From the NCBI RefSeq assembly GCF_008831285.2, contig NC_045151.1, forward strand, positions 4,337,544-4,401,543: a stretch of 64,000 nucleotides of DNA. Reading direction: 5' to 3'. Made by a program: the position numbers and the translations under genes. The stretch is from Nymphaea colorata. Its lineage: Eukaryota; Streptophyta; Magnoliopsida; Nymphaeales; Nymphaeaceae. Positions 27,811 through 57,400 of the stretch are shown in pieces (the first letter of the stretch is position 1; each line of letters begins with the position of its first letter). A model generated the notes under the pieces. It made no database searches and was not told where the DNA came from. It saw nothing but the letters and a program-made list of their open reading frames with translations.

Positions 27811-27910
27811 NNNNNNNNNNNNNNNNNNNNNNNNNNNNNNNNNNNNNNNNNNNNNNNNNNNNNNNNNNNNNNNNNNNNNNNNNNNNNNNNNNNNNNNNNN
27901 NNNNNNNNNN
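27811..27910. other. Assembly gap of 100 N
   Basis: Exactly 100 N, the usual placeholder for a gap of unknown size. It separates the CNL flank from the satellite contig. Confidence 0.99.
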
Positions 27911-29529
27911 GCTTGTAAGAACATAAACGACATTTAAGTGATTTACTTGCTGAATTTTAGTTCATATAATGCGTTTCGCTTGTTATTGCATCTATAATGA
28001 ATGATTTAAATGGTTCAAAATAAAGTTTGTATGAAAAAAATGAAATTCAAGTCATTCGTTTGATCGCTTATCATTCCCCTAATGAGTTGAACTTGTAGTT
28101 AAGGATCTAATGAATTGAAGTCACATTCAATAAGTATGTGTGATCAAACGAATCACTTAAATCCACTCCTGTTATACGAACAACTGATTTCAATCGCTTA
28201 TATGCGAACTATAGATGTAACGACAAGTTGAATTATTTCGATTAAGTACGAGGATGAAACTAATGCATAGATCCATTTTTAACTATATGAACTTGTAATT
28301 TCAATCATTTAAATCGTTCTTTGTAGAAGTTATAAACGGTGAAACACATTATGTTAACTATAAGGATCAATTGAATGACTTAAATCACAAAGTAACATAA
28401 ATGTGTTAAACATGCATGTTGAATGGTTTAGTGGAATGAAATCACAAGCTTGTAAGAACATAAACGACATTTAAGTGATTTACTTGCTGAATTTAGTTCA
28501 TATAATGCGTTTCGCTTGTTATTGCATCTATAATGAATGATTTAAATGGTTCAAACTAAAAGTTTGTATGAAAAGAAATGAAATTCAAGTCATTCGTTTG
28601 ATCGCTTATCATTCCCCTAATGAGTTGAACTTGTAGTTAAGGATCTAATGAATTGAAGTCACATTCAATTAAGTATGTGTGATCAAACGAATCACTTAAA
28701 TCCCACTCCTGTTTATACGAACAACTGATTTCAATCGCTTATATCGCGTACTATAGATGTAACACAAGTTGAATTCTTTCGATTAAGTACGAGGGATGAA
28801 ACTATGCATAATCCATTTTTAACTATATGAACCTGTGATTTCAATCATTTAAATCGTTCTTTATAGAAGTAATAAAGGTAAAACACATTATGTTAACTAT
28901 AAGGATCAATTGAATGACTTGAATCACAAAGTAATGCATAAATGTGCTTAAACATGCATGTTGAATGATTTAGTGGAATGAAATCACAAGCTTGTAAGAA
29001 CATAAATGACATTTAAGTGATTTACTTGCTTATTTTAGTTAATATAATGTGTTTCGCTTGTTATTGCATCTATAATGAATGATTTAAATGGTTCAAACTA
29101 AAAGTTTGTATGAAAAGAAATGAAATTCAAGTCATTCGTTTGATCGCTTATCATTCCCCTAATGAGTTGAACTTGTAGTTAAGGATCTAATGAATTGAAG
29201 TCACATTCAATTAAGTATGTGTGATCAAACGAATCACTTAAATCCCACTCCTGTTTATACGAACAACTGATTTCAATCGCTTATATCGCGTACTATAGAT
29301 GTAACACAAGTTGAATTCTTTCGATTAAGTACGAGGGATGAAACTATGCATAGATCCATTTTTAACTATATGAACTTGTAATTTCAATCATTTAAATCGT
29401 TCTTTGTAGAAGTTATAAACGGTGAAACACATTATGTTAACTATAAGGATCAATTGAATGACTTAAATCACAAAGTAACACATAAATGTGTTTAAACATG
29501 CATGTTGAATGGTTTAGTGGAATGAAATC

Positions 29530-32500
29530 ACAAGCTTGTAAGAACATAAACGACATTTAAGTGATTTACTTGCTGAATTTTAGTTATATAATGCGTTTCG
29601 CTTGTTATTGCATCTATAATGAATGATTTAAATGGTTCAAATAAAAGTTTGTATGAAAAGAAATGAAATTCAAGTCATTCGTTTGATCGCTTATCATTCC
29701 CCTAATGAGTTGAACTTGTAGTTAAGGATCTAATGAATTGAAGTCACATTCAATTAAGTATGTGTGATCAAACGAATCACTTAAATCCCACTCCTGTTTA
29801 TACGAACAACTGATTTCAATCGCTTATATCGCGTACTATAGATGTAACGACAAGTTGAATTCTTTCGATTAAGTACCAGGGATGAAACTAGTGCATAGAT
29901 CTCATTTTTAACTATATGAACCTGTGATTTCAATTATTTAAATCGTTCTTTATAGAAGTAATAAATGGTAAAACACATTATGTTAACTATAAGGAATCAA
30001 TTGAATGACTTGAATCACAAAGTAATGCATAAATGTGCTTAAACATGCATGTTGAATGATTTAGTGGAATGAAATCACAAGCTTGTAAGAACATAAACGA
30101 CATTTAAGTGATTTACTTGCTGAATTTTAGTTAATATAATGCGTTTCGCTTGTTATTGCATCTATAATGAATGATTTAAATGGTTCAAACTAAAAGTTTG
30201 TATGAAAAGAAATGAAATTCAAGTCATTCGTTTGATCGCTTATCATTCCCCTAATGAGTTGAACTTGTAGTTAAGGATCTAATGAATTGAAGTCACATTC
30301 AATAAGTATGTGTGATCAAACGAATCACTTAAATCCACTCCTGTTTATACGAACAACTGATTTCAATCGCTTATATCGCGTACTATAGATGTAACCACAA
30401 GTTGAATTCTTTCGATTAAGTACGAGGGATGAAACTAATGCGTAGATCACATTTTTAACTATATGAACCTGTGATTTCAATCATTTAAATCGTTCTTTAA
30501 GAAGTAATAAACGGTAAAACACATTATGTTAACTATAAGGGATCAATTGAATGCTTAAACCACAAAGTAATGCATAAATGTGCTTAAAATGCATGTTGAA
30601 TGATTTACTTGAATGAAATCACAAGTTGTAAGAACATAAATGACATTTAAGTGATTTACTTGCTTATTTTAGTTAATATAATGTGTTTCGCTTTGATTGC
30701 ATCTATAATGAATGATTTAAATGGTTCAAACTAAAAGTTTGTATGAAAAGAAATGAAATTCAAGTCATTGTTTGATCGCTTATCATTCCCTAATGAGTTG
30801 AACTTGTAGTTAAGGATCTAATGAATTGAAGTCACATTCAATTAAGTATGTGTGATCAAACGAATCACTTAAATCCCACTCCTGTTTATACGAACAACTG
30901 ATTTCAATCGCTTATATCGCGTACTATAATGTAACCACAAGTTGAATTCTTTCGATTAAGTACGAGGGATGAAACTAGTGCATATATCCATTTTTAACTA
31001 TATGAACTTGTGATTTCAATCGTTTAAATCGTTCTTTATAGAAGTTATAACGGTGAAACACATTATGTTAACTATAAGGGATCAATTGAATGACTTGAAT
31101 CACATGTAATGCATAAATGTGCTTAAACATGCATGTTGAATGATTTAGTGGAATGAAATCAGAAGCTTGTAAGAACATAAATGACATTTAAGTGATTTAC
31201 TTGCTTATTTTAGTTAATATAATGTGTTTCGCTTGTTATTGCATCTATAATGAATGATTTAAACGGTTCAAACTAAAAGTTTGTATGAAAAGAAATGAAA
31301 TTCAAGTCATTCGTTTGATCGCTTATCATTCCCCTAATGAGTTGAACTTGTAGTTAAGGATTAATGAATTGAAGTCACATTCAATTAAGTATGTGTGATC
31401 AAACGAATCACTTAAATCCCACTCCTGTTTATACGAACAACTGATTCAATCGCTTATATGCGAACTATAGATGTAACGACAAGTTGAATTATTTCGATTA
31501 AGTACGAGGGATGAAACTAATGCATAGATCACATTTTTAACTATATGAACTTGTAATTTCAATCATTTAAATCGTTCTTTGTAGAAGTTATAAAGGTGAA
31601 ACACATTATGTTAACTATAAAGGATAATTGAATGACTTAAATCACAAAGTACACATAAATGTGTTTAAACATGCAGTTGAATGGTTTAGTGGAATGAAAT
31701 CACAAGCTTGTAAGAACATAAACGACATTTAAGTGATTTACTTGCTGAATTTTAGTTCATATAATGCGTTTCGCTTGTTATTGCATCTATAATGAATGAT
31801 TTAAATGGTTCAAATAAAAGTTTGTATGAAAAGAAATGAAATTCAAGTCATTCGTTTGATCGCTTATCATTCCCCTAATGAGTTGAACTTGTAGTTAAGG
31901 ATCTAATGAATTGAAGTCACATTCAATTAAGTATGTGTGATCAAACGAATCACTTAAATCCCACTCCTGTTTATACGAACAACTGATTTCAATCGCTTAT
32001 ATCGCGTACTATAGATGTAACGACAAGTTGAATTCTTTCGATTAAGTACCAGGGATGAAACTAGTGCATAGATCTCATTTTTAACTATATGAACCTGTGA
32101 TTTCAATTATTTAAATCGTTCTTTATAGAAGTAATAAATGGTAAAACACATTATGTTAACTATAAGGAATCAATTGAATGACTTGAATCACAAAGTAATG
32201 CATAAATGTGCTTAAACATGCATGTTGAATGATTTAGTGGAATGAAATCACAAGCTTGTAAGAACATAAACGACATTTAAGTGATTTACTTGCTGAATTT
32301 TAGTTAATTAATGCGTTTCGCTTGTTATTGCATCTATAATGAATGATTTAAATGGTTCAAACTAAAAGTTTGTATGAAAAGAAATGAAATTCAAGTCATT
32401 CGTTTGATCGCTTATCATTCCCCTAATGAGTTGAACTTGTAGTTAAGGATCTAATGAATTGAGTCACATTCAATTAAGTATGTGTGATCAAACGAATCAC

Positions 32501-34600
32501 TTAAATCCACTCCTGTTTATACGAACAACTGATTTCAATCGCTTATATCGCGTACTATAGATGTAACACAAGTTGAATTCTTTCGATTAAGTACGAGGGA
32601 TGAAACTAATGCGTAGAACACATTTTTAACTATATGAACCTGTGATTTCAATCATTTAAATCGTTCTTTATAGAAGTAATAAACGGTAAAACACATTATG
32701 TTAACTATAAGGGATCAATTGAATGCTTAAACCACAAAGTAATGCATAAATGTGCTTAAAATGCATGTTGAATGATTTACTTGAATGAAATCACAAGTTG
32801 TAAGAACATAAATGACATTTAAGTGATTTACTTGCTTATTTTAGTTAATATAATGTGTTTCGCTTGATTGCATCTATAATGAATGATTTAAATGGTTCAA
32901 ACTAAAAGTTTGTATGAAAAGAAATGAAATTCAAGTCATTGTTTGATCGCTTATCATTCCCCTAATGAGTTGAACTTGTAGTTAAGGATCTAATGAATTG
33001 AAGTCACATTCAATTAAGTATGTGTGATCAAACGAATCACTTAAATCCACTCCTGTTTATACGAACAACTGATTTCAATCGCTTATATCGCGTACTATAA
33101 TGTAACACAAGTTGAATTCTTTCGATTAAGTACGAGGATGAAACTATGCATAATCCATTTTTAACTATATGAACTTGTGATTTCAATCGTTTAAATCGTT
33201 CTTTATAGAAGTTATAACGGTGAAACACATTATGTTAACTATAAGGGATCAATTGAATGACTTGAATCACAGTAATGCATAAATGTGCTTAAACATGCAT
33301 GTTGAATGATTTAGTGGAATGAAATCAAAGCTTGTAAGAACATAAATGACATTTAAGTGATTTACTTGCTTATTTTAGTTAATATAATGTGTTTCGCTTG
33401 TTATTGCATCTATAATGAATGATTTAAACGGTTCAAACTAAAAGTTTGTATGAAAAGAAATGAAATTGAAGTCATTCGTTTGATCGCTTATCATTCCCTA
33501 ATGAGTTGAACTTGTAGTTAAGGATTAATGAATTGAAGTCACATTCAATTAAGTATGTGTGATCAAACGAATCACTTAAATCCCACTCCTGTTTATACGA
33601 ACAACTGATTCAATCGCTTATATAGCGAACTATAGATGTAACGACAAGTTGAATTATTTCGATTAAGTACGAGGGATGAAACTAATGCATAGATCACATT
33701 TTTAACTATATGAACTTGTAATTTCAATCATTTAAATCGTTCTTTGTAGAAGTTATAAATGGTGAAACACATTATGTTAACTATAAAGGATAATTGAATG
33801 ACTTAAATCACAAAGTAACACATAAATGTGTTTAAACATGCAGTTGAATGGTTTAGTGGAATGAAATCACAAGCTTGTAAGAACATAAACGACATTTAAG
33901 TGATTTACTTGCTGAATTTTAGTTCATATAATGCGTTTCGCTTGTTATTGCATCTATAATGAATGATTTAAATGGTTCAAATAAAAGTTTGTATGAAAAG
34001 AAATGAAATTCAAGTCATTCGTTTGATCGCTTATCATTCCCCTAATGAGTTGAACTTGTAGTTAAGGATCTAATGAATTGAAGTCACATTCAATTAAGTA
34101 TGTGTGATCAAACGAATCACTTAAATCCCACTCCTGTTTATACGAACAACTGATTTCAATCGCTTATATCGCGTACTATAGATGTAACGACAAGTTGAAT
34201 TCTTTCGATTAAGTACAGGGATGAAACTAGTGCATAATCTCATTTTTAACTATATGAACCTGTGATTTCAATTATTTAAATCGTTCTTTATAGAAGTAAT
34301 AAATGGTAAAACACATTATGTTAACTATAAGGAATCAATTGAATGACTTGAATCACAAAGTAATGCATAAATGTGCTTAAACATGCATGTTGAATGATTT
34401 AGTGGAATGAAATCACAAGCTTGTAAGAACATAAACGACATTTAAGTGATTTACTTGCTGAATTTTAGTTAATATAATGGTTTCGCTTGTTATTGCATCT
34501 ATAATGAATGATTTAAATGGTTCAAACTAAAAGTTTGTATGAAAAGAAATGAAATTCAAGTCATTCGTTTGATCGCTTATCATTCCCCTAATGAGTTGAA
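29530..34600. repeat. Tetrameric higher-order repeat within the satellite (about 2.17 kb)
   Basis: Anchors four units apart are 2165-2173 bp apart and share private variants. AGTACCAGGG occurs at 29,874, again at about 32,045, and as AGTACAGGG near 34,212. CAAGTCATTGTTTGAT (missing C) occurs at 30,761 and 32,932. Monomers with AACGGTTC plus GATTCAATCGC occur near 31,262/31,444 and 33,428/33,609. About two and a half copies are visible. Confidence 0.75.
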
Positions 34601-37600
34601 CTTGTAGTTAAGGATCTAATGAATTGAAGTCACATTCAATTAAGTATGTGTGATCAAACGAATCACTTAAATCCACTCCTGTTTATACGAACAACTGATT
34701 TCAATCGCTTATATCGCGTACTATAGATGTAACACAAGTTGAATTCTTTCGATTAAGTACGAGGGATGAAACTAATGCATAGATCCATTTTTAACTATAT
34801 GAACTGTGATTTCAATCATTTAAATCGTTCTTTAGAAGTAATAAACGGTAAACACATTATGTTAACTATAAGGATCAATTGAATGACTTAAATCACAAAG
34901 TAATGCATAAATGTGCTTAAACATGCATGTTGAATGATTTAGTGAATGAAATCACAAGTTGTAAGAACATAAATGACATTTAAGTGATTTACTTGCTGAT
35001 TTTAGTTAATATAATGGTTTCGCTTGTTATTGCATCTATAATGAATGATTTAAATGGTTCAAACTAAAAGTTTGTATGAAAAGAAATGAAATTCAAGTCA
35101 TTCGTTTGATCGCTTATCATTCCCCTAATGAGTTGAACTTGTAGTTAAGGATCTAATGAATTGAAGTCACATTCAATTAAGTATGTGTGATCAAACGAAT
35201 CACTTAAATCCCACTCCTGTTTATACGAACAACTGATTTCAATCGCTTATATCGCGTACTATAGATGTAACGACAAGTTGAATTCTTTCGATTAAGTACA
35301 GGGATGAAACTATGCATAGATCCATTTTTAACTATATGAACTGTGATTTCAATCATTTAAATCGTTCTTTATAGAAGTATAAATGGTAAACACATTATGT
35401 TAACTATAAGGATCAATTGAATGACTTAATCACAAAGTAATGCATAAATGTGCTTAAACATGCATGTTGAATGATTTAGTGGAATGAAATCACAAGCTTG
35501 TAAGAACATAAACGACATTTAAGTGATTACTTGCTGATTTAGTTAATATGGTTTCGCTTGTTATTGCATCTATAATGAATGATTTAAAGGTTCAAACTAA
35601 AAGTTTGTATGAAAAGAAATGAAATTCAAGTCATTCGTTTGATCGCTTATCATTCCCTAATGAGTTGAACTTGTAGTTAAGGATCTAATGAATTGAAGTC
35701 ACATTCAATTAAGTATGTGTGATCAAACGAATCACTTAAATCCACTCCTGTTTATACGAACAACTGATTTCAATCGCTTATATCGCGTACTATAGATGTA
35801 ACACAAGTTGAATTCTTTCGATTAAGTACGAGGGATGAAACTAATGCTAGATCACATTTTTAACTATATGAACCTGTGATTTCAATCATTTAAATCGTTC
35901 TTTAAGAAGTAATAAACGGTAAACACATTATGTTAACTATAAGGGATCAATTGAATGACTTAAACACAAAGTAATGCATAAATGTGCTTAAAATGCATGT
36001 TGAATGATTTAGTGAATGAAATCACAAGTTGTAAGAACATAAATGACATTTAAGTGATTTACTTGCTATTTTAGTTAATATAATGGTTTCGCTTGTTATT
36101 GCATCTATAATGAATGATTTAAATGGTTCAAACTAAAAGTTTGTATGAAAAGAAATGAAATTCAAGTCATTCGTTTGATCGCTTATCATTCCCCTAATGA
36201 GTTGAACTTGTAGTTAAGGATCTAATGAATTGAAGTCACATTCAATTAAGTATGTGTGATCAAACGAATCACTTAAATCCCACTCCTGTTTATACGAACA
36301 ACTGATTTCAATCGCTTATATCGCGTACTATAGATGTAACACAAGTTGAATTCTTTCGATTAAGTACGAGGGATGAAACTATGCATAGATCCATTTTTAA
36401 CTATATGAACTTGTGATTTCAATCATTTAAATCGTTCTTTATAGAAGTTATAAACGGTGAAACACATTATGTTAACTATAAGGGATCAATTGAATGACTT
36501 AATCACAAAGTAATGCATAAATGTGCTTAAACATGCATGTTGAATGATTTAGTGGAATGAAATCACAAGCTTGTAAGAACATAAACGACATTTAAGTGAT
36601 TTACTTGCTGAATTTTAGTTAATATAATGGTTTCGCTTGTTATTGCATCTATAATGAATGATTTAAATGGTTCAAACTAAAAGTTTGTATGAAAAGAAAT
36701 GAAATTCAAGTCATTCGTTTGATCGCTTATCATTCCCCTAATGAGTTGAACTTGTAGTTAAGGATCTAATGAATTGAAGTCACATTCAATTAAGTATGTG
36801 TGATCAAACGAATCACTTAAATCCCACTCCTGTTTATACGAACAACTGATTTCAATCGCTTATATCGCGAACTATAGATGTAACGACAAGTTGAATTTTT
36901 CGATTAAGTACGAGGGATGAAACTAATGCATAGATCACATTTTTAACTATATGAACTTGTAATTTCAATCATTTAAATCGTTCTTTGTAGAAGTTATAAA
37001 CGGTGAAACACATTATGTTAACTATAAGGATCAATTGAATGACTTAAATCACAAAGTAACACATAAATGTGTTTAAACATGCATGTTGAATGGTTTAGTG
37101 GAATGAAATCACAAGCTTGTAAGAACATAAACGACATTTAAGTGATTTACTTGCTGAATTTTAGTTATATAATGCGTTTCGCTTGTTATTGCATCTATAA
37201 TGAATGATTTAAATGGTTCAAACTAAAAGTTTGTATGAAAAGAAATGAAATTCAAGTCATTCGTTTGATCGCTTATCATTCCCCTAATGAGTTGAACTTG
37301 TAGTTAAGGATCTAATGAATTGAAGTCACATTCAATTAAGTATGTGTGATCAAACGAATCACTTAAATCCCACTCCTGTTTATACGAACAACTGATTTCA
37401 ATCGCTTATATCGCGTACTATAGATGTAACGACAAGTTGAATTCTTTCGATTAAGTACGAGGGATGAAACTATGCATAGATCCATTTTTAACTATATGAA
37501 CCTGTGATTTCAATCATTTAAATCGTTCTTTATAGAAGTATAAATGGTAAACACATTATGTTAACTATAAGGATCAATTGAATGACTTAATCACAAAGTA

Positions 37601-40600
37601 ATGCATAAATGTGCTTAAACATGCATGTTGAATGATTTAGTGGAATGAAATCACAAGCTTGTAAGAACATAAACGACATTTAAGTGATTTACTTGCTGAA
37701 TTTTAGTTAATATAATGCGTTTCGCTTGTTATTGCATCTATAATGAATGATTTAAATGGTTCAAACTAAAAGTTTGTATGAAAAGAAATGAAATTCAAGT
37801 CATTCGTTTGATCGCTTATCATTCCCCTAATGAGTTGAACTTGTAGTTAAGGATCTAATGAATTGAAGTCACATTCAATTAAGTATGTGTGATCAAACGA
37901 ATCACTTAAATCCCACTCCTGTTTATACGAACAACTGATTTCAATCGCTTATATCGCGTACTATAGATGTAACACAAGTTGAATTCTTTCGATTAAGTAC
38001 GAGGGATGAAACTATGCATAGATCCATTTTTAACTATATGAACTGTGATTTCAATCATTTAAATCGTTCTTTATAGAAGTATAAACGGTAAACACATTAT
38101 GTTAACTATAAGGGATCAATTGAATGACTTAATCACAAAGTAATGCATAAATGTGCTTAAACATGCATGTTGAATGATTTAGTGGAATGAAATCACAAGC
38201 TTGTAAGAACATAAACGACATTTAAGTGATTTACTTGCTTATTTTAGTTAATATAATGTGTTTCGCTTGTTATTGCATCTATAATGAATGATTTAAATGG
38301 TTCAAACTAAAAGTTTGTATGAAAAGAAATGAAATTCAAGTCATTCGTTTGATCGCTTATCATTCCCCTAATGAGTTGAACTTGTAGTTAAGGATCTAAT
38401 GAATTGAAGTCACATTCAATTAAGTATGTGTGATCAAACGAATCACTTAAATCCCACTCCTGTTTATACGAACAACTGATTTCAATCGCTTATATCGCGA
38501 ACTATAGATGTAACGACAAGTTGAATTATTTCGATTAAGTACGAGGGATGAAACTAATGCATAGATCCATTTTTAACTATATGAACTTGTATTTCAATCA
38601 TTTAAATCGTTCTTTGTAGAAGTTATAAACGGTGAAACACATTATGTTAACTATAAGGATCAATTGAATGACTTAAATCACAAAGTAACACATAAATGTG
38701 TTAAACATGCATGTTGAATGGTTTAGTGGAATGAAATCACAAGCTTGTAAGAACATAAACGACATTTAAGTGATTTACTTGCTGAATTTTAGTTATATAA
38801 TGCGTTTCGCTTGTTATTGCATCTATAATGAATGATTTAAATGGTTCAAACTAAAAGTTTGTATGAAAAGAAATGAAATTCAAGTCATTCGTTTGATCGC
38901 TTATCATTCCCCTAATGAGTTGAACTTGTAGTTAAGGATCTAATGAATTGAAGTCACATTCAATTAAGTATGTGTGATCAAACGAATCACTTAAATCCCA
39001 CTCCTGTTTATACGAACAACTGATTTCAATCGCTTATATCGCGTACTATAGATGTAACACAAGTTGAATTCTTTCGATTAAGTACGAGGGATGAAACTAA
39101 TGCATAGATCCATTTTTAACTATATGAACTGTGATTTCAATCATTTAAATCGTTCTTTATAGAAGTAATAAACGGTAAACACATTATGTAACTATAAGGA
39201 TCAATTGAATGACTTAAATCACAAAGTAATGCATAAATGTGCTTAAACATGCATGTTGAATGATTTAGTGAATGAAATCACAAGCTTGTAAGAACATAAA
39301 CGACATTTAAGTGATTTACTTGCTGAATTTTAGTTAATATAATGGTTTCGCTTGTTATTGCATCTATAATGAATGATTTAAATGGTTCAAACTAAAAGTT
39401 TGTATGAAAAGAAATGAAATTCAAGTCATTCGTTTGATCGCTTATCATTCCCCTAATGAGTTGAACTTGTAGTTAAGGATCTAATGAATTGAAGTCACAT
39501 TCAATTAAGTATGTGTGATCAAACGAATCACTTAAATCCCACTCCTGTTTATACGAACAACTGATTTCAATCGCTTATATCGCGAACTATAGATGTAACG
39601 ACAAGTTGAATTATTTCGATTAAGTACGAGGGATGAAACTAATGCATAGATCCATTTTTAACTATATGAACTTGTAATTTCAATCATTTAAATCGTTCTT
39701 TGTAGAAGTTATAAACGGTGAAACACATTATGTTAACTATAAGGATCAATTGAATGACTTAAATCACAAAGTAACACATAAATGTGTTTAAACATGCATG
39801 TTGAATGGTTTAGTGGAATGAAATCACAAGCTTGTAAGAACATAAACGACATTTAAGTGATTTACTTGCTGAATTTTAGTTAATATAATGGTTTCGCTTG
39901 TTATTGCATCTATAATGAATGATTTAAATGGTTCAAACTAAAAGTTTGTATGAAAAGAAATGAAATTCAAGTCATTCGTTTGATCGCTTATCATTCCCCT
40001 AATGAGTTGAACTTGTAGTTAAGGATCTAATGAATTGAAGTCACATTCAATTAAGTATGTGTGATCAAACGAATCACTTAAATCCCACTCCTGTTTATAC
40101 GAACAACTGATTTCAATCGCTTATATCGCGTACTATAGATGTAACGACAAGTTGAATTCTTTCGATTAAGTACGAGGGATGAAACTATGCATAGATCCAT
40201 TTTTAACTATATGAACTGTGATTTCAATCATTTAAATCGTTCTTTTAGAAGTTATAAACGGTGAAACACATTATGTTAACTATAAGGATCAATTGAATGA
40301 CTTAAATCACAAAGTAACATAAATGTGTTTAAACATGCATGTTGAATGATTTAGTGGAATGAAATCACAAGCTTGTAAGAACATAAACGACATTTAAGTG
40401 ATTTACTTGCTGAATTTTAGTTAATATAATGCGTTTCGCTTGTTATTGCATCTATAATGAATGATTTAAATGGTTCAAACTAAAAGTTTGTATGAAAAGA
40501 AATGAAATTCAAGTCATTCGTTTGATCGCTTATCATTCCCCTAATGAGTTGAACTTGTAGTTAAGGATCTAATGAATTGAAGTCACATTCAATTAAGTAT

Positions 40601-43600
40601 GTGTGATCAAACGAATCACTTAAATCCCACTCCTGTTTATACGAACAACTGATTTCAATCGCTTATATCGCGTACTATAGATGTAACGACAAGTTGAATT
40701 CTTTCGATTAAGTACGAGGGATGAAACTAATGCATAGATCCATTTTTAACTATATGAACTGTGATTTCAATCATTTAAATCGTTCTTTATAGAAGTATAA
40801 ACGGTAAACACATTATGTTAACTATAAGGATCAATTGAATGACTTAAATCACAAAGTAATGCATAAATGTGCTTAAACATGCATGTTGAATGATTTAGTG
40901 AATGAAATCACAAGCTTGTAAGAACATAAACGACATTTAAGTGATTTACTTGCTGAATTTTAGTTAATATAATGGTTTCGCTTGTTATTGCATCTATAAT
41001 GAATGATTTAAATGGTTCAAACTAAAAGTTTGTATGAAAAGAAATGAAATTCAAGTCATTCGTTTGATCGCTTATCATTCCCCTAATGAGTTGAACTTGT
41101 AGTTAAGGATCTAATGAATTGAAGTCACATTCAATTAAGTATGTGTGATCAAACGAATCACTTAAATCCCACTCCTGTTTATACGAACAACTGATTTCAA
41201 TCGCTTATATCGCGTACTATAGATGTAACGACAAGTTGAATTTTTCGATTAAGTACGAGGGATGAAACTAATGCATAGATCCATTTTTAACTATATGAAC
41301 TTGTAATTTCAATCATTTAAATCGTTCTTTGTAGAAGTTATAAACGGTAAACACATTATGTTAACTATAAGGATCAATTGAATGACTTAAATCACAAAGT
41401 AATCATAAATGTGTTAAACATGCATGTTGAATGATTTAGTGAATGAAATCACAAGCTTGTAAGAACATAAACGACATTTAAGTGATTTACTTGCTGAATT
41501 TTAGTTAATATAATGGTTTCGCTTGTTATTGCATCTATAATGAATGATTTAAATGGTTCAAACTAAAAGTTTGTATGAAAAGAAATGAAATTCAAGTCAT
41601 TCGTTTGATCGCTTATCATTCCCCTAATGAGTTGAACTTGTAGTTAAGGATCTAATGAATTGAAGTCACATTCAATTAAGTATGTGTGATCAAACGAATC
41701 ACTTAAATCCCACTCCTGTTTATACGAACAACTGATTTCAATCGCTTATATCGCGTACTATAGATGTAACACAAGTTGAATTTTTCGATTAAGTACGAGG
41801 GATGAAACTAATGCATAGATCACATTTTTAACTATATGAACCTGTGATTTCAATCATTTAAATCGTTCTTTATAGAAGTAATAAACGGTAAAACACATTA
41901 TGTTAACTATAAGGGATCAATTGAATGACTTAAACACAAAGTAATGCATAAATGTGCTTAAAATGCATGTTGAATGATTTATTGAATGAAATCACAAGTT
42001 GTAAGAACATAAACGACATTTAAGTGATTTACTTGCTGAATTTTAGTTAATATAATGGTTTCGCTTGTTATTGCATCTATAATGAATGATTTAAATGGTT
42101 CAAACTAAAAGTTTGTATGAAAAGAAATGAAATTCAAGTCATTCGTTTGATCGCTTATCATTCCCCTAATGAGTTGAACTTGTAGTTAAGGATCTAATGA
42201 ATTGAAGTCACATTCAATTAAGTATGTGTGATCAAACGAATCACTTAAATCCCACTCCTGTTTATACGAACAACTGATTTCAATCGCTTATATCGCGAAC
42301 TATAGATGTAACGACAAGTTGAATTATTTCGATTAAGTACGAGGGATGAAACTAATGCATAGATCCATTTTTAACTATATGAACTTGTATTTCAATCATT
42401 TAAATCGTTCTTTGTAGAAGTTATAAACGGTGAAACACATTATGTTAACTATAAGGATCAATTGAATGACTTAAATCACAAAGTAAACATAAATGTGTTA
42501 AACATGCATGTTGAATGATTTAGTGGAATGAAATCACAAGCTTGTAAGAACATAAACGACATTTAAGTGATTTACTTGCTGAATTTTAGTTAATATAATG
42601 GTTTCGCTTGTTATTGCATCTATAATGAATGATTTAAATGGTTCAAACTAAAAGTTTGTATGAAAAGAAATGAAATTCAAGTCATTCGTTTGATCGCTTA
42701 TCATTCCCCTAATGAGTTGAACTTGTAGTTAAGGATCTAATGAATTGAAGTCACATTCAATTAAGTATGTGTGATCAAACGAATCACTTAAATCCCACTC
42801 CTGTTTATACGAACAACTGATTTCAATCGCTTATATCGCGTACTATAGATGTAACGACAAGTTGAATTTTTCGATTAAGTACGAGGGATGAAACTAATGC
42901 ATAGATCCATTTTTAACTATATGAACTGTGATTTCAATCATTTAAATCGTTCTTTATAGAAGTATAAACGGTAAAACACATTATGTTAACTATAAGGATC
43001 AATTGAATGACTTAAATCACAAAGTAATGCATAAATGTGCTTAAACATGCATGTTGAATGATTTAGTGAATGAAATCACAAGTTGTAAGAACATAAACGA
43101 CATTTAAGTGATTTACTTGCTGAATTTTAGTTAATATAATGGTTTCGCTTGTTATTGCATCTATAATGAATGATTTAAATGGTTCAAACTAAAAGTTTGT
43201 ATGAAAAGAAATGAAATTCAAGTCATTCGTTTGATCGCTTATCATTCCCCTAATGAGTTGAACTTGTAGTTAAGGATCTAATGAATTGAAGTCACATTCA
43301 ATTAAGTATGTGTGATCAAACGAATCACTTAAATCCCACTCCTGTTTATACGAACAACTGATTTCAATCGCTTATATCGCGAACTATAGATGTAACGACA
43401 AGTTGAATTATTTCGATTAAGTACGAGGGATGAAACTAATGCATAGATCCATTTTTAACTATATGAACTTGTAATTTCAATCATTTAAATCGTTCTTTGT
43501 AGAAGTTATAAACGGTGAAACACATTATGTTAACTATAAGGGATCAATTGAATGACTTAAATCACAAAGTAACACATAAATGTGTTTAAACATGCATGTT

Positions 43601-46600
43601 GAATGGTTTAGTGGAATGAAATCACAAGCTTGTAAGAACATAAACGACATTTAAGTGATTTACTTGCTGAATTTTAGTTAATATAATGCGTTTCGCTTGT
43701 TATTGCATCTATAATGAATGATTTAAACGGTTCAAACTAAAAGTTTGTATGAAAAGAAATGAAATTCAAGTCATTCGTTTGATCGCTTATCATTCCCCTA
43801 ATGAGTTGAACTTGTAGTTAAGGATCTAATGAATTGAAGTCACATTCAATTAAGTATGTGTGATCAAACGAATCACTTAAATCCCACTCCTGTTTATACG
43901 AACAACTGATTTCAATCGCTTATATCGCGTACTATAGATGTAACACAAGTTGAATTCTTTCGATTAAGTACGAGGGATGAAACTAATGCATAGATCACAT
44001 TTTTAACTATATGAACCTGTGATTTCAATCATTTAAATCGTTCTTTATAGAAGTAATAAACGGTAAAACACATTATGTTAACTATAAGGATCAATTGAAT
44101 GACTTAAATCACAAAGTAATGCATAAATGTGCTTAAACATGCATGTTGAATGATTTAGTGAATGAAATCACAAGCTTGTAAGAACATAAACGACATTTAA
44201 GTGATTTACTTGCTGAATTTTAGTTAATATAATGGTTTCGCTTGTTATTGCATCTATAATGAATGATTTAAATGGTTCAAACTAAAAGTTTGTATGAAAA
44301 GAAATGAAATTCAAGTCATTCGTTTGATCGCTTATCATTCCCCTAATGAGTTGAACTTGTAGTTAAGGATCTAATGAATTGAAGTCACATTCAATTAAGT
44401 ATGTGTGATCAAACGAATCACTTAAATCCCACTCCTGTTTATACGAACAACTGATTTCAATCGCTTATATCGCGACTATAGATGTAACGACAAGTTGAAT
44501 TTTTCGATTAAGTACGAGGGATGAAACTAATGCATAGATCCATTTTTAACTATATGAACTTGTATTTCAATCATTTAAATCGTTCTTTGTAGAAGTTATA
44601 AACGGTAAACACATTATGTTAACTATAAGGATCAATTGAATGACTTAAATCACAAAGTAACCATAAATGTGTTAAACATGCATGTTGAATGTTTAGTGAA
44701 TGAAATCACAAGCTTGTAAGAACATAAACGACATTTAAGTGATTTACTTGCTGAATTTTAGTTAATATAATGGTTTCGCTTGTTATTGCATCTATAATGA
44801 ATGATTTAAATGGTTCAAACTAAAAGTTTGTATGAAAAGAAATGAAATTCAAGTCATTCGTTTGATCGCTTATCATTCCCCTAATGAGTTGAACTTGTAG
44901 TTAAGGATCTAATGAATTGAAGTCACATTCAATTAAGTATGTGTGATCAAACGAATCACTTAAATCCCACTCCTGTTTATACGAACAACTGATTTCAATC
45001 GCTTATATCGCGTACTATAGATGTAACGACAAGTTGAATTTTTCGATTAAGTACGAGGGATGAAACTAATGCATAGATCCATTTTTAACTATATGAACTG
45101 TGATTTCAATCATTTAAATCGTTCTTTTAGAAGTATAAACGGTAAACACATTATGTTAACTATAAGGATCAATTGAATGACTTAAATCACAAAGTAATGC
45201 ATAAATGTGTTAAACATGCATGTTGAATGATTTAGTGGAATGAAATCACAAGCTTGTAAGAACATAAACGACATTTAAGTGATTTACTTGCTGAATTTTA
45301 GTTAATATAATGGTTTCGCTTGTTATTGCATCTATAATGAATGATTTAAATGGTTCAAACTAAAAGTTTGTATGAAAAGAAATGAAATTCAAGTCATTCG
45401 TTTGATCGCTTATCATTCCCCTAATGAGTTGAACTTGTAGTTAAGGATCTAATGAATTGAAGTCACATTCAATTAAGTATGTGTGATCAAACGAATCACT
45501 TAAATCCCACTCCTGTTTATACGAACAACTGATTTCAATCGCTTATATCGCGTACTATAGATGTAACGACAAGTTGAATTCTTTCGATTAAGTACGAGGG
45601 ATGAAACTAATGCATAGATCCATTTTTAACTATATGAACTGTGATTTCAATCATTTAAATCGTTCTTTATAGAAGTAATAAACGGTAAACACATTATGTT
45701 AACTATAAGGATCAATTGAATGACTTAAATCACAAAGTAATGCATAAATGTGCTTAAACATGCATGTTGAATGATTTAGTGAATGAAATCACAAGCTTGT
45801 AAGAACATAAACGACATTTAAGTGATTTACTTGCTGAATTTTAGTTAATATAATGGTTTCGCTTGTTATTGCATCTATAATGAATGATTTAAATGGTTCA
45901 AACTAAAAGTTTGTATGAAAAGAAATGAAATTCAAGTCATTCGTTTGATCGCTTATCATTCCCCTAATGAGTTGAACTTGTAGTTAAGGATCTAATGAAT
46001 TGAAGTCACATTCAATTAAGTATGTGTGATCAAACGAATCACTTAAATCCCACTCCTGTTTATACGAACAACTGATTTCAATCGCTTATATCGCGAACTA
46101 TAGATGTAACGACAAGTTGAATTATTTCGATTAAGTACGAGGGATGAAACTAATGCATAGATCCATTTTTAACTATATGAACTTGTAATTTCAATCATTT
46201 AAATCGTTCTTTGTAGAAGTTATAAACGGTAAACACATTATGTTAACTATAAGGGATCAATTGAATGACTTAAATCACAAAGTAACATAAATGTGTTAAA
46301 CATGCATGTTGAATGATTTAGTGAATGAAATCACAAGCTTGTAAGAACATAAACGACATTTAAGTGATTTACTTGCTGAATTTTAGTTAATATAATGCGT
46401 TTCGCTTGTTATTGCATCTATAATGAATGATTTAAATGGTTCAAACTAAAAGTTTGTATGAAAAGAAATGAAATTCAAGTCATTCGTTTGATCGCTTATC
46501 ATTCCCCTAATGAGTTGAACTTGTAGTTAAGGATCTAATGAATTGAAGTCACATTCAATTAAGTATGTGTGATCAAACGAATCACTTAAATCCCACTCCT

Positions 46601-49600
46601 GTTTATACGAACAACTGATTTCAATCGCTTATATCGCGTACTATAGATGTAACACAAGTTGAATTCTTTCGATTAAGTACGAGGGATGAAACTAATGCAT
46701 AGATCACATTTTTAACTATATGAACCTGTGATTTCAATCATTTAAATCGTTCTTTATAGAAGTAATAAACGGTAAAACACATTATGTAACTATAAGGATC
46801 AATTGAATGACTTAAATCACAAAGTAATGCATAAATGTGCTTAAACATGCATGTTGAATGATTTAGTGAATGAAATCACAAGCTTGTAAGAACATAAACG
46901 ACATTTAAGTGATTTACTTGCTGAATTTTAGTTAATATAATGGTTTCGCTTGTTATTGCATCTATAATGAATGATTTAAATGGTTCAAACTAAAAGTTTG
47001 TATGAAAAGAAATGAAATTCAAGTCATTCGTTTGATCGCTTATCATTCCCCTAATGAGTTGAACTTGTAGTTAAGGATCTAATGAATTGAAGTCACATTC
47101 AATTAAGTATGTGTGATCAAACGAATCACTTAAATCCCACTCCTGTTTATACGAACAACTGATTTCAATCGCTTATATCGCGAACTATAGATGTAACGAC
47201 AAGTTGAATTTTTCGATTAAGTACGAGGGATGAAACTAATGCATAGATCCATTTTTAACTATATGAACTTGTAATTTCAATCATTTAAATCGTTCTTTGT
47301 AGAAGTTATAAACGGTGAAACACATTATGTTAACTATAAGGATCAATTGAATGACTTAAATCACAAAGTAACATAAATGTGTTTAAACATGCATGTTGAA
47401 TGTTTAGTGAATGAAATCACAAGCTTGTAAGAACATAAACGACATTTAAGTGATTTACTTGCTGAATTTTAGTTAATATAATGCGTTTCGCTTGTTATTG
47501 CATCTATAATGAATGATTTAAATGGTTCAAACTAAAAGTTTGTATGAAAAGAAATGAAATTCAAGTCATTCGTTTGATCGCTTATCATTCCCCTAATGAG
47601 TTGAACTTGTAGTTAAGGATCTAATGAATTGAAGTCACATTCAATTAAGTATGTGTGATCAAACGAATCACTTAAATCCCACTCCTGTTTATACGAACAA
47701 CTGATTTCAATCGCTTATATCGCGTACTATAGATGTAACGACAAGTTGAATTTTTCGATTAAGTACGAGGGATGAAACTAATGCATAGATCCATTTTTAA
47801 CTATATGAACCTGTGATTTCAATCATTTAAATCGTTCTTTATAGAAGTATAAACGGTAAAACACATTATGTTAACTATAAGGATCAATTGAATGACTTAA
47901 ACACAAAGTAATGCATAAATGTGCTTAAAATGCATGTTGAATGATTTACTGAATGAAATCACAAGTTGTAAGAACATAAACGACATTTAAGTGATTTACT
48001 TGCTGAATTTTAGTTAATATAATGGTTTCGCTTGTTATTGCATTATAATGAATGATTTAAATGGTTCAAACTAAAAGTTTGTATGAAAAGAAATGAAATT
48101 CAAGTCATTCGTTTGATCGCTTATCATTCCCCTAATGAGTTGAACTTGTAGTTAAGGATCTAATGAATTGAAGTCACATTCAATTAAGTATGGTGATCAA
48201 ACGAATCACTTAAATCCCACTCCTGTTTATACGAACAACTGATTTCAATCGCTTATATCGCGAACTATAGATGTAACGACAAGTTGAATTATTTCGATTA
48301 AGTACGAGGGATGAAACTAATGCATAGATCCATTTTTAACTATATGAACTTGTAATTTCAATCATTTAAATCGTTCTTTGTAGAAGTTATAAACGGTGAA
48401 ACACATTATGTTAACTATAAGGATCAATTGAATGACTTAAATCACAAAGTAACATAAATGTGTTAAACATGCATGTTGAATGGTTTAGTGGAATGAAATC
48501 ACAAGCTTGTAAGAACATAAACGACATTTAAGTGATTTACTTGCTGAATTTTAGTTAATATAATGCGTTTCGCTTGTTATTGCATCTATAATGAATGATT
48601 TAAATGGTTCAAACTAAAAGTTTGTATGAAAAGAAATGAAATTCAAGTCATTCGTTTGATCGCTTATCATTCCCCTAATGAGTTGAACTTGTAGTTAAGG
48701 ATCTAATGAATTGAAGTCACATTCAATTAAGTATGTGTGATCAAACGAATCACTTAAATCCCACTCCTGTTTATACGAACAACTGATTTCAATCGCTTAT
48801 ATCGCGTACTATAGATGTAACACAAGTTGAATTATTTCGATTAAGTACGAGGGATGAAACTAATGCTAGATCACATTTTTAACTATATGAACCTGTGATT
48901 TCAATCATTTAAATCGTTCTTTATAGAAGTAATAAACGGTAAAACACATTATGTAACTATAAGGATCAATTGAATGCTTAAACACAAAGTAATGCATAAA
49001 TGTGCTTAAAGATGCATGTTGAATGATTTATGAATGAAATCACAAGTTGTAAGAACATAAACGACATTTAAGTGATTTACTTGCTGATTTTAGTTAATAT
49101 AATGTGTTTCGCTTGTTATTGCATCTATAATGAATGATTTAAATGGTTAAACTAAAAGTTTGTATGAAAAGAAATGAAATTCAAGTCATTCGTTTGATCG
49201 CTTATCATTCCCCTAATGAGTTGAACTTGTAGTTAAGGATCTAATGAATTGAAGTCACATTCAATTAAGTATGGTGATCAAACGAATCACTTAAATCCCA
49301 CTCCTGTTTATACGAACAACTGATTTCAATCGCTTATATCGCGAACTATAGATGTAACGACAAGTTGAATTATTTCGATTAAGTACGAGGGATGAAACTA
49401 ATGCATAGATCCCATTTTTAACTATATGAACTTGTAATTTCAATCATTTAAATCGTTCTTTGTAGAAGTTATAAACGGTAAAACACATTATGTTAACTAT
49501 AAGGATCAATTGAATGACTTAAATCACAAAGTAATGCATAAATGTGCTTAAACATGCATGTTGAATGATTTAGTGAATGAAATCACAAGCTTGTAAGAAC

Positions 49601-51439
49601 ATAAACGACATTTAAGTGATTTACTTGCTGAATTTTAGTTAATATAATGGTTTCGCTTGTTATTGCATCTATAATGAATGATTTAAACGGTTCAAACTAA
49701 AAGTTTGTATGAAAAGAAATGAAATTCAAGTCATTCGTTTGATCGCTTATCATTCCCCTAATGAGTTGAACTTGTAGTTAAGGATCTAATGAATTGAAGT
49801 CACATTCAATTAAGTATGTGTGATCAAACGAATCACTTAAATCCCACTCCTGTTTATACGAACAACTGATTTCAATCGCTTATATCGCGTACTATAGATG
49901 TAACACAAGTTGAATTTTTCGATTAAGTACGAGGGATGAAACTAATGCATAGATCACATTTTTAACTATATGAACCTGTGATTTCAATCATTTAAATCGT
50001 TCTTTATAGAAGTAATAAACGGTAAAACACATTATGTAACTATAAGGATCAATTGAATGACTTAAATCACAAAGTAATGCATAAATGTGCTTAAGATGCA
50101 TGTTGAATGATTTACTTGAATGAAATCACAAGTTGTAAGAACATAAACGACATTTAAGTGATTTACTTGCTGATTTTAGTTAATATAATGTGTTTCGCTT
50201 GTATTGCTTTATAATGAATGATTTAAATGGTTCAAACTAAAAGTTTGTATGAAAAGAAATGAAATTCAAGTCATTCGTTTGATCGCTTATCATTCCCCTA
50301 ATGAGTTGAACTTGTAGTTAAGGATCTAATGAATTGAAGTCACATTCAATTAAGTATGGTGATCAAACGAATCACTTAAATCCCACTCCTGTTTATACGA
50401 ACAACTGATTTCAATCGCTTATATCGCGAACTATAGATGTAACGACAAGTTGAATTATTTCGATTAAGTACGAGGGATGAAACTAATGCATAGATCCCAT
50501 TTTTAACTATATGAACTTGTAATTTCAATCATTTAAATCGTTCTTTGTAGAAGTTATAAACGGTAAACACATTATGTAACTATAAGGGATCAATTGAATG
50601 ACTTAAATCACAAAGTAATGCATAAATGTGCTTAAACATGCATGTTGAATGATTTAGTGAATGAAATCACAAGCTTGTAAGAACATAAACGACATTTAAG
50701 TGATTTACTTGCTGAATTTTAGTTAATATAATGGTTTCGCTTGTTATTGCATCTATAATGAATGATTTAAACGGTTCAAACTAAAAGTTTGTATGAAAAG
50801 AAATGAAATTCAAGTCATTCGTTTGATCGCTTATCATTCCCCTAATGAGTTGAACTTGTAGTTAAGGATCTAATGAATTGAAGTCACATTCAATTAAGTA
50901 TGTGTGATCAAACGAATCACTTAAATCCCACTCCTGTTTATACGAACAACTGATTTCAATCGCTTATATCGCGTACTATAGATGTAATCACAAGTTGAAT
51001 TTTTCGATTAAGTACGAGGGATGAAACTAATGCGTAGATCACATTTTTAACTATATGAACCTGTGATTTCAATCATTTAAATCGTTCTTTATAGAAGTAA
51101 TAAACGGTAAAACACATTATGTCAACTATAAGGGATCAATTGAATGGTTAAACCACAAAGTAATGCATAAATGTGCTTAAAGATGCATGTTGAATGATTT
51201 ACTTGAATGAAATCACAAGTTTGTAAGAACATAAATGACATTTAAGTGATTTACTTGCTTTATTTTAGTTAATATAATGTGTTTCGCTTGTGATTGCTTT
51301 TATAATGAATGATTTAAATGGTTGAAACTAAAAGTTTGTATGAAAAGAAATGAAATTCAAGTCATTCGTTTGATCGCTTATCATTCCCCTAATGAGTTGA
51401 ACTTGTAGTTAAGGATCTAATGAATTGAAGTCACATTCA

Positions 51440-54400
51440 ATTAAGTATGCGTGATCAAACGAATCACTTAAATCCCACTCCTGTTTATACGAACAACTGA
51501 TTTCAATCGTTTATATCGCGAACTATAGATGTAACGACAAGTTGAATTATTTCGATTAAGTACGAGGGATGAAACTAATGCATAGATCCCATTTTTAACT
51601 ATATGAACTTGTAATTTCAATCATTTAAATCGTTCTTTGTAAAGTTATAAACGGTAAACACATTATGTTAACTATAAGGGATCAATTGAATGACTTAAAC
51701 ACAAAGTAATGCATAAATGTGTTAAAATGCATGTTGAATGATTTAGTGAATGAAATCACAAGCTTGTAAGAACATAAACGACATTTAAGTGATTTACTTG
51801 CTGATTTTAGTTAATATAATGTGTTTCGCTTGTATTGCATCTATAATGAATGATTTAAACGGTTCAAACTAAAAGTTTGTATGAAAAGAAATGAAATTCA
51901 AGTCATTCGTTTGATCGCTTATCATTCCCCTAATGAGTTGAACTTGTAGTTAAGGATCTAATGAATTGAAGTCACATTCAATTAAGTATGTGTGATCAAA
52001 CGAATCACTTAAATCCCACTCCTGTTTATACAACAACTGATTTCAATCGCTTATATCGCGTACTATAGATGTAATCACAAGTTGAATTATTTCGATTAAG
52101 TACGAGGGATGAAACTAATGCGTAGATCACATTTTTAACTATATGAACCTGTGATTTCAATCATTTAAATCGTTCTTTATAGAAGTAATAAACGGTAAAA
52201 CACATTATGTCAACTATAAGGGATCAATTGAATGGTTTAAACCACAAAGTAATGCATAAATGTGCTTAAGATGCATGTTGAATGATTTACTTGAATGAAA
52301 TCACAAGTTTGTAAGAACATAAATGACATTTAAGTGATTTACTTGCTTATTTTAGTTAATATAATGTGTTTCGCTTGTGATTGCTTTTATAATGAATGAT
52401 TTAAATGGTTGAAACTAAAAGTTTGTATGAAAAGAAATGAAATTCAAGTCATTCGTTTGATCGCTTATCATTCCCCTAATGAGTTGAACTTGTAGTTAAG
52501 GATCTAATGAATTGAAGTCACATTCAATTAAGTATGCGTGATCAAACGAATCACTTAAATCCCACTCCTGTTTATACGAACAACTGATTTCAATCGTTTA
52601 TATCGCGAACTATAGATGTAACGACAAGTTGAATTATTTCGATTGAGTACGAGGGATGAAACTAATGCATAGATCCCATTTTTAACTATATGAACTTGTA
52701 ATTTCAATCATTTAAATCGTTCTTTGTATAAGTTATAAACGGTAAAACACATTATGTAACTATAAGGATCAATTGAATGCTTAAACCACAAAGTAATGCA
52801 TAAATGTGCTTAAAGATGCATGTTGAATGATTTACTTGAATGAAATCACAAGTTTGTAAGAACATAAATGACATTTAAGTGATTTACTTGCTTATTTTAG
52901 TTAATATAATGTGTTTCGCTTGTGATTGCTTTATAATGAATGATTTAAACGGTTCAAACTAAAAGTTTGTATGAAAAGAAATGAAATTCAAGTCATTCGT
53001 TTGATCGCTTATCATTCCCCTAATGAGTTGAACTTGTAGTTAAGGATCTAATGAATTGAAGTCACATTCAATTAAGTATGTGTGATCAAACGAATCACTT
53101 AAATCCCACTCCTGTTTATACAACAACTGATTTCAATCGCTTATATCGCGTACTATAGATGTAATCACAAGTTGAATTATTTCGATTAAGTACGAGGGAT
53201 GAAACTAATGCGTAGATCACATTTTTAACTATATGAACCTGTGATTTCAATCATTTAAATTGTTCTTTATAGAAGTAATAAACGGTAAAACACATTATGT
53301 CAACTATAAGGGATCAATTGAATGGTTAAACCACAAAGTAATGCATAAATGTGCTTAAGATGCATGTTGAATGATTTACTTGAATGAAATCACAAGTTTG
53401 TAAGAACATAAATGACATTTAAGTGATTTACTTGCTTTATTTTAGTTAATATAATGTGTTTCGCTTGTGATTGCTTTTATAATGAATGATTTAAATGGTT
53501 GAAACTAAAAGTTTGTATGAAAAGAAATGAAATTCAAGTCATTCGTTTGATCGCTTATCATTCCCCTAATGAGTTGAACTTGTAGTTAAGGATCTAATGA
53601 ATTGAAGTCACATTCAATTAAGTATGCGTGATCAAACGAATCACTTAAATCCCACTCCTGTTTATACGAACAACTGATTTCAATCGTTTATATCGCGAAC
53701 TATAGATGTAACGACAAGTTGAATTATTTCGATTGAGTACGAGGGATGAAACTAATGCATAGATCCCATTTTTAACTATATGAACTTGTAATTTCAATCA
53801 TTTAAATCGTTCTTTGTATAAGTTATAAACGGTAAAACACATTATGTCAACTATAAGGGATCAATTGAATGGCTTAAACCACAAAGTAATGCATAAATGT
53901 GCTTAAAGATGCATGTTGAATGATTTACTTGAATGAAATCACAAGTTTGTAAGAACATAAATGACATTTAAGTGATTTACTTGCTTTATTTTAGTTAATA
54001 TAATGTGTTTCGCTTGTGATTGCTTTATAATGAATGATTTAAACGGTTCAAACTAAAAGTTTGTATGAAAAGAAATGAAATTCAAGTCATTCGTTTGATC
54101 GCTTATCATTCCCCTAATGAGTTGAACTTGTAGTTAAGGATCTAATGAATTGAAGTCACATTCAATTAAGTATGTGTGATCAAACGAATCACTTAAATCC
54201 CACTCCTGTTTATACAACAACTGATTTCAATCGCTTATATCGCGTACTATAGATGTAATCACAAGTTGAATTATTTCGATTAAGTACGAGGGATGAAACT
54301 AATGCGTAGATCACATTTTTAACTATATGAACCTGTGATTTCAATCATTTAAATTGTTCTTTATAGAAGTAATAAACGGTAAAACACATTATGTCAACTA

Positions 54401-57400
54401 TAAGGGATCAATTGAATGGTTTAAACCACAAAGTAATGCATAAATGTGCTTACAGATGCATGTTGAATGATTTACTTGAATGAAATCACAAGTTTGTAAG
54501 AACATAAATGACATTTAAGTGATTTACTTGCTTTATTTTAGTTAATATAATGTGTTTCGCTTGTGATTGCTTTTATAATGAATGATTTAAATGGTTGAAA
54601 CTAAAAGTTTGTATGAAAAGAAATGAAATTCAAGTCATTCGTTTGATCGCTTATCATTCCCCTAATGAGTTGAACTTGTAGTTAAGGATCTAATGAATTG
54701 AAGTCACATTCAATTAAGTATGCGTGATCAAACGAATCACTTAAATCCCACTCCTGTTTATACGAACAACTGATTTCAATCGTTTATATCGCGAACTATA
54801 GATGTAACGACAAGTTGAATTATTTCGATTGAGTACGAGGGATGAAACTAATGCATAGATCCCATTTTTAACTATATGAACTTGTAATTTCAATCATTTA
54901 AATCGTTCTTTGTATAAGTTATAAACGGTAAAACACATTATGTCAACTATAAGGGATCAATTGAATGGCTTAAACCACAAAGTAATGCATAAATGTGCTT
55001 AAAGATGCATGTTGAATGATTTACTTGAATGAAATCACAAGTTTGTAAGAACATAAATGACATTTAAGTGATTTACTTGCTTTATTTTAGTTAATATAAT
55101 GTGTTTCGCTTGTGATTGCTTTTATAATGAATGATTTAAACGGTTCAAACTAAAAGTTTGTATGAAAAGAAATGAAATTCAAGTCATTCGTTTGATCGCT
55201 TATCATTCCCCTAATGAGTTGAACTTGTAGTTAAGGATCTAATGAATTGAAGTCACATTCAATTAAGTATGTGTGATCAAACGAATCACTTAAATCCCAC
55301 TCCTGTTTATACAAACAACTGATTTCAATCGCTTATATCGCGTACTATAGATGTAATCACAAGTTGAATTATTTCGATTAAGTACGAGGGATGAAACTAA
55401 TGCGTAGATCACATTTTTAACTATATGAACCTGTGATTTCAATCATTTAAATTGTTCTTTATAGAAGTAATAAACGGTAAAACACATTATGTCAACTATA
55501 AGGGATCAATTGAATGGTTTAAACCACAAAGTAATGCATAAATGTGCTTACAGATGCATGTTGAATGATTTACTTGAATGAAATCACAAGTTTGTAAGAA
55601 CATAAATGACATTTAAGTGATTTACTTGCTTTATTTTAGTTAATATAATGTGTTTCGCTTGTGATTGCTTTTATAATGAATGATTTAAATGGTTGAAACT
55701 AAAAGTTTGTATGAAAAGAAATGAAATTCAAGTCATTCGTTTGATCGCTTATCATTCCCCTAATGAGTTGAACTTGTAGTTAAGGATCTAATGAATTGAA
55801 GTCACATTCAATTAAGTATGCGTGATCAAACGAATCACTTAAATCCCACTCCTGTTTATACGAACAACTGATTTCAATCGTTTATATCGCGAACTATAGA
55901 TGTAACGACAAGTTGAATTATTTCGATTGAGTACGAGGGATGAAACTAATGCATAGATCCCATTTTTAACTATATGAACTTGTAATTTCAATCATTTAAA
56001 TCGTTCTTTGTATAAGTTATAAACGGTAAAACACATTATGTCAACTATAAGGATCAATTGAATGGCTTAAACCACAAAGTAATGCATAAATGTGCTTAAA
56101 GATGCATGTTGAATGATTTACTTGAATGAAATCACAAGTTTGTAAGAACATAAATGACATTTAAGTGATTTACTTGCTTTATTTTAGTTAATATAATGTG
56201 TTTCGCTTGTGATTGCTTTTATAATGAATGATTTAAACGGTTCAAACTAAAAGTTTGTATGAAAAGAAATGAAATTCAAGTCATTCGTTTGATCGCTTAT
56301 CATTCCCCTAATGAGTTGAACTTGTAGTTAAGGATCTAATGAATTGAAGTCACATTCAATTAAGTATGTGTGATCAAACGAATCACTTAAATCCCACTCC
56401 TGTTTATACAACAACTGATTTCAATCGCTTATATCGCGTACTATAGATGTAATCACAAGTTGAATTATTTCGATTAAGTACGAGGGATGAAACTAATGCG
56501 TAGATCACATTTTTAACTATATGAACCTGTGATTTCAATCATTTAAATTGTTCTTTATAGAAGTAATAAACGGTAAAACACATTATGTCAACTATAAGGG
56601 ATCAATTGAATGGTTAAACCACAAAGTAATGCATAAATGTGCTTACAGATGCATGTTGAATGATTTACTTGAATGAAATCACAAGTTTGTAAGAACATAA
56701 ATGACATTTAAGTGATTTACTTGCTTATTTTAGTTAATATAATGTGTTTCGCTTGTGATTGCTTTTATAATGAATGATTTAAATGGTTGAAACTAAAAGT
56801 TTGTATGAAAAGAAATGAAATTCAAGTCATTCGTTTGATCGCTTATCATTCCCCTAATGAGTTGAACTTGTAGTTAAGGATCTAATGAATTGAAGTCACA
56901 TTCAATTAAGTATGCGTGATCAAACGAATCACTTAAATCCCACTCCTGTTTATACGAACAACTGATTTCAATCGTTTATATCGCGAACTATAGATGTAAC
57001 GACAAGTTGAATTATTTCGATTGAGTACGAGGGATGAAACTAATGCATAGATCCCATTTTTAACTATATGAACTTGTAATTTCAATCATTTAAATCGTTC
57101 TTTGTATAAGTTATAAACGGTAAAACACATTATGTCAACTATAAGGATCAATTGAATGGCTTAAACCACAAAGTAATGCATAAATGTGCTTAAAGATGCA
57201 TGTTGAATGATTTACTTGAATGAAATCACAAGTTTGTAAGAACATAAATGACATTTAAGTGATTTACTTGCTTATTTTAGTTAATATAATGTGTTTCGCT
57301 TGTGATTGCTTTTATAATGAATGATTTAAACGGTTCAAACTAAAAGTTTGTATGAAAAGAAATGAAATTCAAGTCATTCGTTTGATCGCTTATCATTCCC

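Follow-up and report, generated by a model that had tools for sequence, protein, structure and literature searches.

The window, a stretch of 64,000 nucleotides analysed as a whole, contains a satellite array that makes up one entire contig (27911-60092, forward strand), bounded on both sides by scaffold gaps, each a run of 100 N (27811-27910 at the left end, 60093-60192 at the right). The monomers, of approximately 545 bp, are arranged head-to-tail, and cutting at a conserved anchor yields 58 full copies of 533-549 bp, here numbered m01 to m58, plus partial or uncounted copies at the ends. A satellite-only contig lying between two gaps lends no independent support to copy number or order, and the caution on both counts advised by the preliminary description is reasonable. 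The left flank is plant-like: it includes a copia-type gag and fragments of a single disease-resistance gene, with NB-ARC and WH_DRP domains. An NB-ARC disease-resistance gene on the minus strand (23875-27185) is apparently split over several short reading frames, which may reflect introns, decay or sequence error, while a tandem duplication with a 205-bp unit and 97% matches is found further out in the same flank (3200-3612). Exact-pattern scans for satellite copies outside the window gave 0 matches in the viral_contigs and genome_contigs collections, nor did a search of plasmids for distant matches find any; all of these are non-plant collections and the results carry little weight.

The array is not uniform along its length. 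In the left part, identity between monomers peaks at lag 4 (0.91, compared to 0.66-0.68 at lags 1-3), indicating a tetramer; here m04-m11 (29676-34015) comprise a four-monomer unit present twice, the two being 99.1% alike, with some deletions at invariant columns. In the right part the peak is at lag 2 (0.92, compared to 0.51 at lag 1), indicating a dimer: two monomer types alternate through m43-m54 (50816-57374), unit m49-m50 is 99.8% like unit m51-m52, and m47-m54 (52994-57374) contain few deletions. The middle, m13-m42 (34562-50815), has lag 1 and lag 2 identities of 0.82 and 0.93, a weaker contrast than the 0.51 and 0.92 of the right, and its monomers combine alleles of left and right types. 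We read these as chimeras produced by blending; real exchange could also produce them. A tetrameric higher-order repeat gives way to a dimeric one within a single contig, with a blended zone between, and any real tetramer/dimer junction is masked by the artefact described below. Monomer types diverge by approximately 2-8%, as judged from nine monomers compared. The three monomers tested for internal structure (m11, 33473-34015; m50 and m51, 54636-55733) share a weak periodicity of approximately 114-115 bp, self-identity being 39-41% where the mean is 29%; a further one, of 28 bp (37%), is present in m50 and m51. The pattern suggests that the monomer arose long ago from subrepeats.

The 58 full monomers were aligned over 549 columns; omitted throughout were the incomplete copy with which the contig starts on the left and the final one (59555-60092), which no anchor follows. 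Columns 227 and 318 are length variants and were excluded from deletion counts. Since a few missing bases adjoin (e.g. columns 351-352), each was counted individually, and the missing base is the unit of count. A column was considered variable if a second base occurred in at least three monomers; there are 43 such columns, columns 318-323 having been removed from the list, and together with their slide-neighbours they amount to 79 of the 549. The alignment holds no insertion-like column, defined as one with a base present in three rows or fewer, although misaligned stretches could conceal one.

The missing bases are strikingly concentrated at variable columns. Of 276 in total, 185 lie strictly at such columns, where 19.8 would be expected, and the figure rises to 217, against 30.8 expected, once gaps are slid to equivalent placements. 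This confirms the initial observation that single bases are absent where monomer types differ. Three or more deletions fall in each of 30 columns, of which 21 are themselves variable; adding slide-neighbours brings the number to 25 (hypergeometric p approximately 1e-18 to 1e-19), and the five exceptions are columns 24, 112 and 204, in runs of C or G, and columns 129 and 515. With sliding, variable columns account for 27 of 68 missing bases in m01-m12, 159 of 171 in m13-m42, which almost coincides with the interval given in the preliminary description, and 31 of 37 in m43-m58, and in m16-m42 the per-monomer list sums to 133 of 134. The proposal that the effect is strongest in the middle is thus borne out for variable-site deletions, with 5.3 per monomer compared to 2.3 on the left and 1.9 on the right, but not for deletions of all kinds, with 5.70 per monomer in the middle, 5.67 on the left and 2.31 on the right.

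Those deletions that fall away from variable columns, 59 of the 276, behave differently. Homopolymers of at least three bases hold 24 of these 59, compared to 118 of the 549 columns, and run-length error accounts for only part of them. Deletions at invariant columns are found mostly in m01-m15 (27911-36167) and are nearly absent from m16-m42 (one of 134). They make up a second class of error, and its distribution may plausibly reflect low depth at the contig end together with a deep collapsed pile in the middle. Two balanced columns, 159 and 423, have one and no deletions respectively. Column 423 is nearly all C in the middle (28 of 30) and the alleles at column 159 track monomer class, so that the scarcity of deletions at both fits blending, albeit by after-the-fact reasoning.

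Since the deletion-rich region could itself distort the list of variable columns, a second list was drawn up from m01-m12 and m43-m58 alone. With sliding, 160 of the 171 middle deletions match these ends-only columns, where approximately 12% would be expected. Monomers were also divided by the base at column 247 into class T and a class with C, and cells were counted class by class without sliding, after removal of 25 columns in which rows were misaligned or alleles differed in length. In class T, middle monomers lack a base in 48 of 377 cells at variable columns compared to two of 6435 at invariant ones; in class C the figures are 69 of 442 and 52 of 8466. The observed loss rates at variable cells are accordingly 12.7% and 15.6%. 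At many columns the ends differ in base and the middle has one of those bases or nothing. For example, at column 407 in class C the left has four C and two deletions, the middle ten C and seven deletions, and the right eight T. The notion that each deletion represents a mixture of the two main classes proved too simple: 127 of the 171 middle deletions lie at columns that vary, in the ends, within the monomer's own class, the remainder comprising 33 at columns variable across classes only, one at a column variable only somewhere in the array and ten at columns with a single base everywhere.

The preliminary description illustrated the effect with eight deletion forms, assigned to 34400-51000. 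All eight exist in the array, with rather different distributions. Every copy lies inside that interval for AATGGTTTC (19 of 19), GAACTGTGA (nine of nine) and GAAGTATAA (seven of seven), as do ten of 11 for GAATTTTTCG and 21 of 25 for AGATCCAT. For TAACACAAG the figure is ten of 15, only a mild concentration because the middle contains 30 of the 58 monomers. The attribution fails for TTGTATTGC, with one of three copies inside, and wholly for ATACAACAAC, with none of four: this form occurs at 52028, 53118, 54212 and 56406, in m45, m47, m49 and m53, which belong to one class of the right dimer array, and it may reflect true loss of a base, a run-length error affecting A or blending of G with A. 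Since AGATCCAT is also present in the otherwise clean monomers m56 and m58, it may partly be a real allele. As to the intact alternatives, ATACAAACAAC has one copy, in the right part (m51, 55309), and TAACCACAAG two, both in the left part.

Comparison of monomers at the higher-order lag offers a further view of the deletions. On the left, at lag 4, 70 of 73 comparisons agree in the minor base, compared to 28 of 47 for deletions; on the right, at lag 2, the figures are 346 of 357 and ten of 37; and for m27-m42, again at lag 2, 64 of 81 and 54 of 146. In this last set the deletion concordance of 0.37 compares with 0.296 on within-class permutation, a value as high as the observed one being reached by 16 of 500 permutations. 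A recurrent deletion pattern at the higher-order lag is expected from inherited deletions and also from shared read piles, and some of the deletions may be inherited, ATACAACAAC being one candidate. Among 14 middle columns the mean correlation of deletions is 0.04, and the monomers are therefore not evenly blended along their length.

In falcon_sense, mismatches are written as indel pairs and half the coverage is subtracted. Noisy reads were simulated from real monomer types and three scoring rules compared: plurality; half-coverage with mismatches allowed; and a half-coverage path score in which a mismatch is a deletion plus an insertion. The main set had 100 reads, three pairs and two repeats each, with CLR-like or ONT-like error. 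In 50:50 mixtures the half-coverage rule with indel pairs lost, sliding included, 40 (CLR-like) and 31 (ONT-like) of 154 differing sites, or 32 and 23 strictly, together with five and 12 of 3126 identical sites; it created one insertion per set. Plurality with mismatches allowed lost, sliding included, six and eight of 154, and half-coverage with mismatches allowed nine and four. In unequal mixtures the indel-pair rule lost 21 and nine of 154 at 55:45 and 17 and 16 (13 and 13 strictly) at 60:40; the fall in loss with growing imbalance is noisy.

A smaller 50:50 simulation, with 40 reads and four pairs in four repeats each, had 64, 92, 72 and 116 differing sites. Of these the half-coverage rule with indel pairs lost 12, 12, 24 and 30, half-coverage with mismatches allowed three, three, one and seven, and plurality four, one, one and seven; in this set the templates m04, m06 and m11 may have deletions of their own, and indel sites are present in the output. 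Over both simulations at 50:50, plurality loses 1-6% of differing sites and half-coverage with indel pairs 13-33%, compared to the observed 13-16%. The observed values of 12.7% and 15.6% fall in the range of the strict values for the latter rule. A plain plurality or majority vote was accordingly rejected as a sufficient cause. The original suggestion of a consensus artefact from mixed paralogous reads is in this way supported in its substance, with the simple majority vote that it invoked being insufficient.

The sequence of events that we favour would be as follows. Monomer divergence of approximately 2-8% would be below the error of noisy long reads (5-15%), and reads of different copies would be piled on one template, either at read correction or at consensus. 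Bases common to the copies would be called correctly, while at sites differing between copies no base would obtain half of the pile. With a mismatch aligned as a deletion plus an insertion, the deletion state would win at the template position, the inserted alternative would fail the half-coverage penalty, and the base would be lost. Other tied sites would resolve to either allele, giving chimeric monomers. We infer that the reads were long and noisy, that they were piled up and which kind of program was at work; it is a matter of observation that the deletions target variable sites, that the middle blends alleles of the ends and that the scoring rule gives this signature in simulation at about the observed rate. 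It is highly probable that most of the deletions were produced by assembly rather than by the plant, and we are more confident still that some kind of blending artefact, arising by consensus in a collapsed satellite, is involved. That a half-coverage scoring rule of the falcon_sense kind was the specific cause we hold to be only somewhat better than an even chance.

The other readings must account for the same features. One-base deletions that are real, having originated in certain monomers before unequal exchange and gene conversion carried them through the array, would explain the recurrence at the higher-order period (28 of 47 left, 10 of 37 right and, for m27-m42 at lag 2, 54 of 146), as well as the return of ATACAACAAC in one class of the right dimer and of AGATCCAT in clean m56 and m58. 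They leave unexplained, however, the position of 25 of 30 recurrent columns at or beside variable columns and the absence of insertion columns, and the very same copies have substitutions in common much more often than deletions; we hold this origin to be very unlikely. Another reading with real deletions is that, when two monomer types pair during recombination, heteroduplex mismatches are excised and the gap closed without refilling, so that single bases would vanish at copy differences, mostly where unlike arrays meet, here tetramer and dimer; it is extremely improbable. The usual errors of noisy long reads, whether random or in run length, with no blending, are suggested by the 59 of 276 deletions away from variable columns, 24 of them in runs and mostly in m01-m15. 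Such errors would place 30.8 of 276 at variable columns rather than the 217 found, and just one of 134 lies elsewhere in m16-m42, so that they are refuted for the middle and hold for part of the left end; as an explanation of the whole their probability is negligible.

Blending might also have acted by another route, through ambiguity codes at mixed sites (characters other than A, C, G, T and N) that were later stripped, or through a polisher that removed bases. Either would likewise strike mixed sites only, without insertions, and the retention of N runs in the sequence is compatible with the stripping of codes. Both nevertheless demand an extra processing step and by themselves do not cover the 59 missing bases located off the variable columns, and we consider this route unlikely, if less so than real deletions. 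It counts against the favoured reading that accurate reads would also give the nearly deletion-free invariant sites of the middle. Mixed-copy consensus is the sole explanation found that predicts deletions at variable sites, nearly clean invariant sites in the middle, a lack of insertion columns and a middle that blends alleles of the two ends.

The general kind of artefact is already known. The excerpt of PMC10997618 consulted gives the error of noisy reads as 5-15% and notes that, once error is higher than divergence, pipelines of the correct-then-assemble type mix alleles or eliminate heterozygotes. The present case resembles the one in that excerpt in that reads of different copies support one template, with alleles eliminated or mixed in one corrected read; it differs in that diploid alleles are eliminated or mixed there, whereas here the copies are satellite monomers and the variable base is deleted. 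The KSC score of NextDenovo (PMC11046930) derives from Falconsense; it applies a depth penalty, counts '-' among its states and flags positions where the chosen allele holds 50% or less. The likeness to our proposed rule lies in a best-path consensus with a depth penalty in which deletion is one of five states (PMC11046930). Among the literature matches listed, seen as titles and the beginnings of abstracts, there was no direct description of the variable base being deleted at sites that are heterozygous or differ between repeat copies. The array is comparable to plant satellites with higher-order repeats, having likewise head-to-tail monomers, of approximately 545 bp, in units of four on the left and two on the right; for a plant satellite of such length, '545 bp' was absent from what could be seen of the literature matches listed.

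For quality control, missing bases at substitution-bearing columns, and hardly elsewhere, are a mark by which a blended satellite can be recognised from an assembly without its reads. The approximately 16 kb in question (34562-50815) should be kept out of phylogenetic work on the satellite, analysis of its higher-order repeats, the design of probes and the counting of copies, whereas m47-m54 (52994-57374) appear much more reliable. The biological interest of the missing bases themselves is very probably none.
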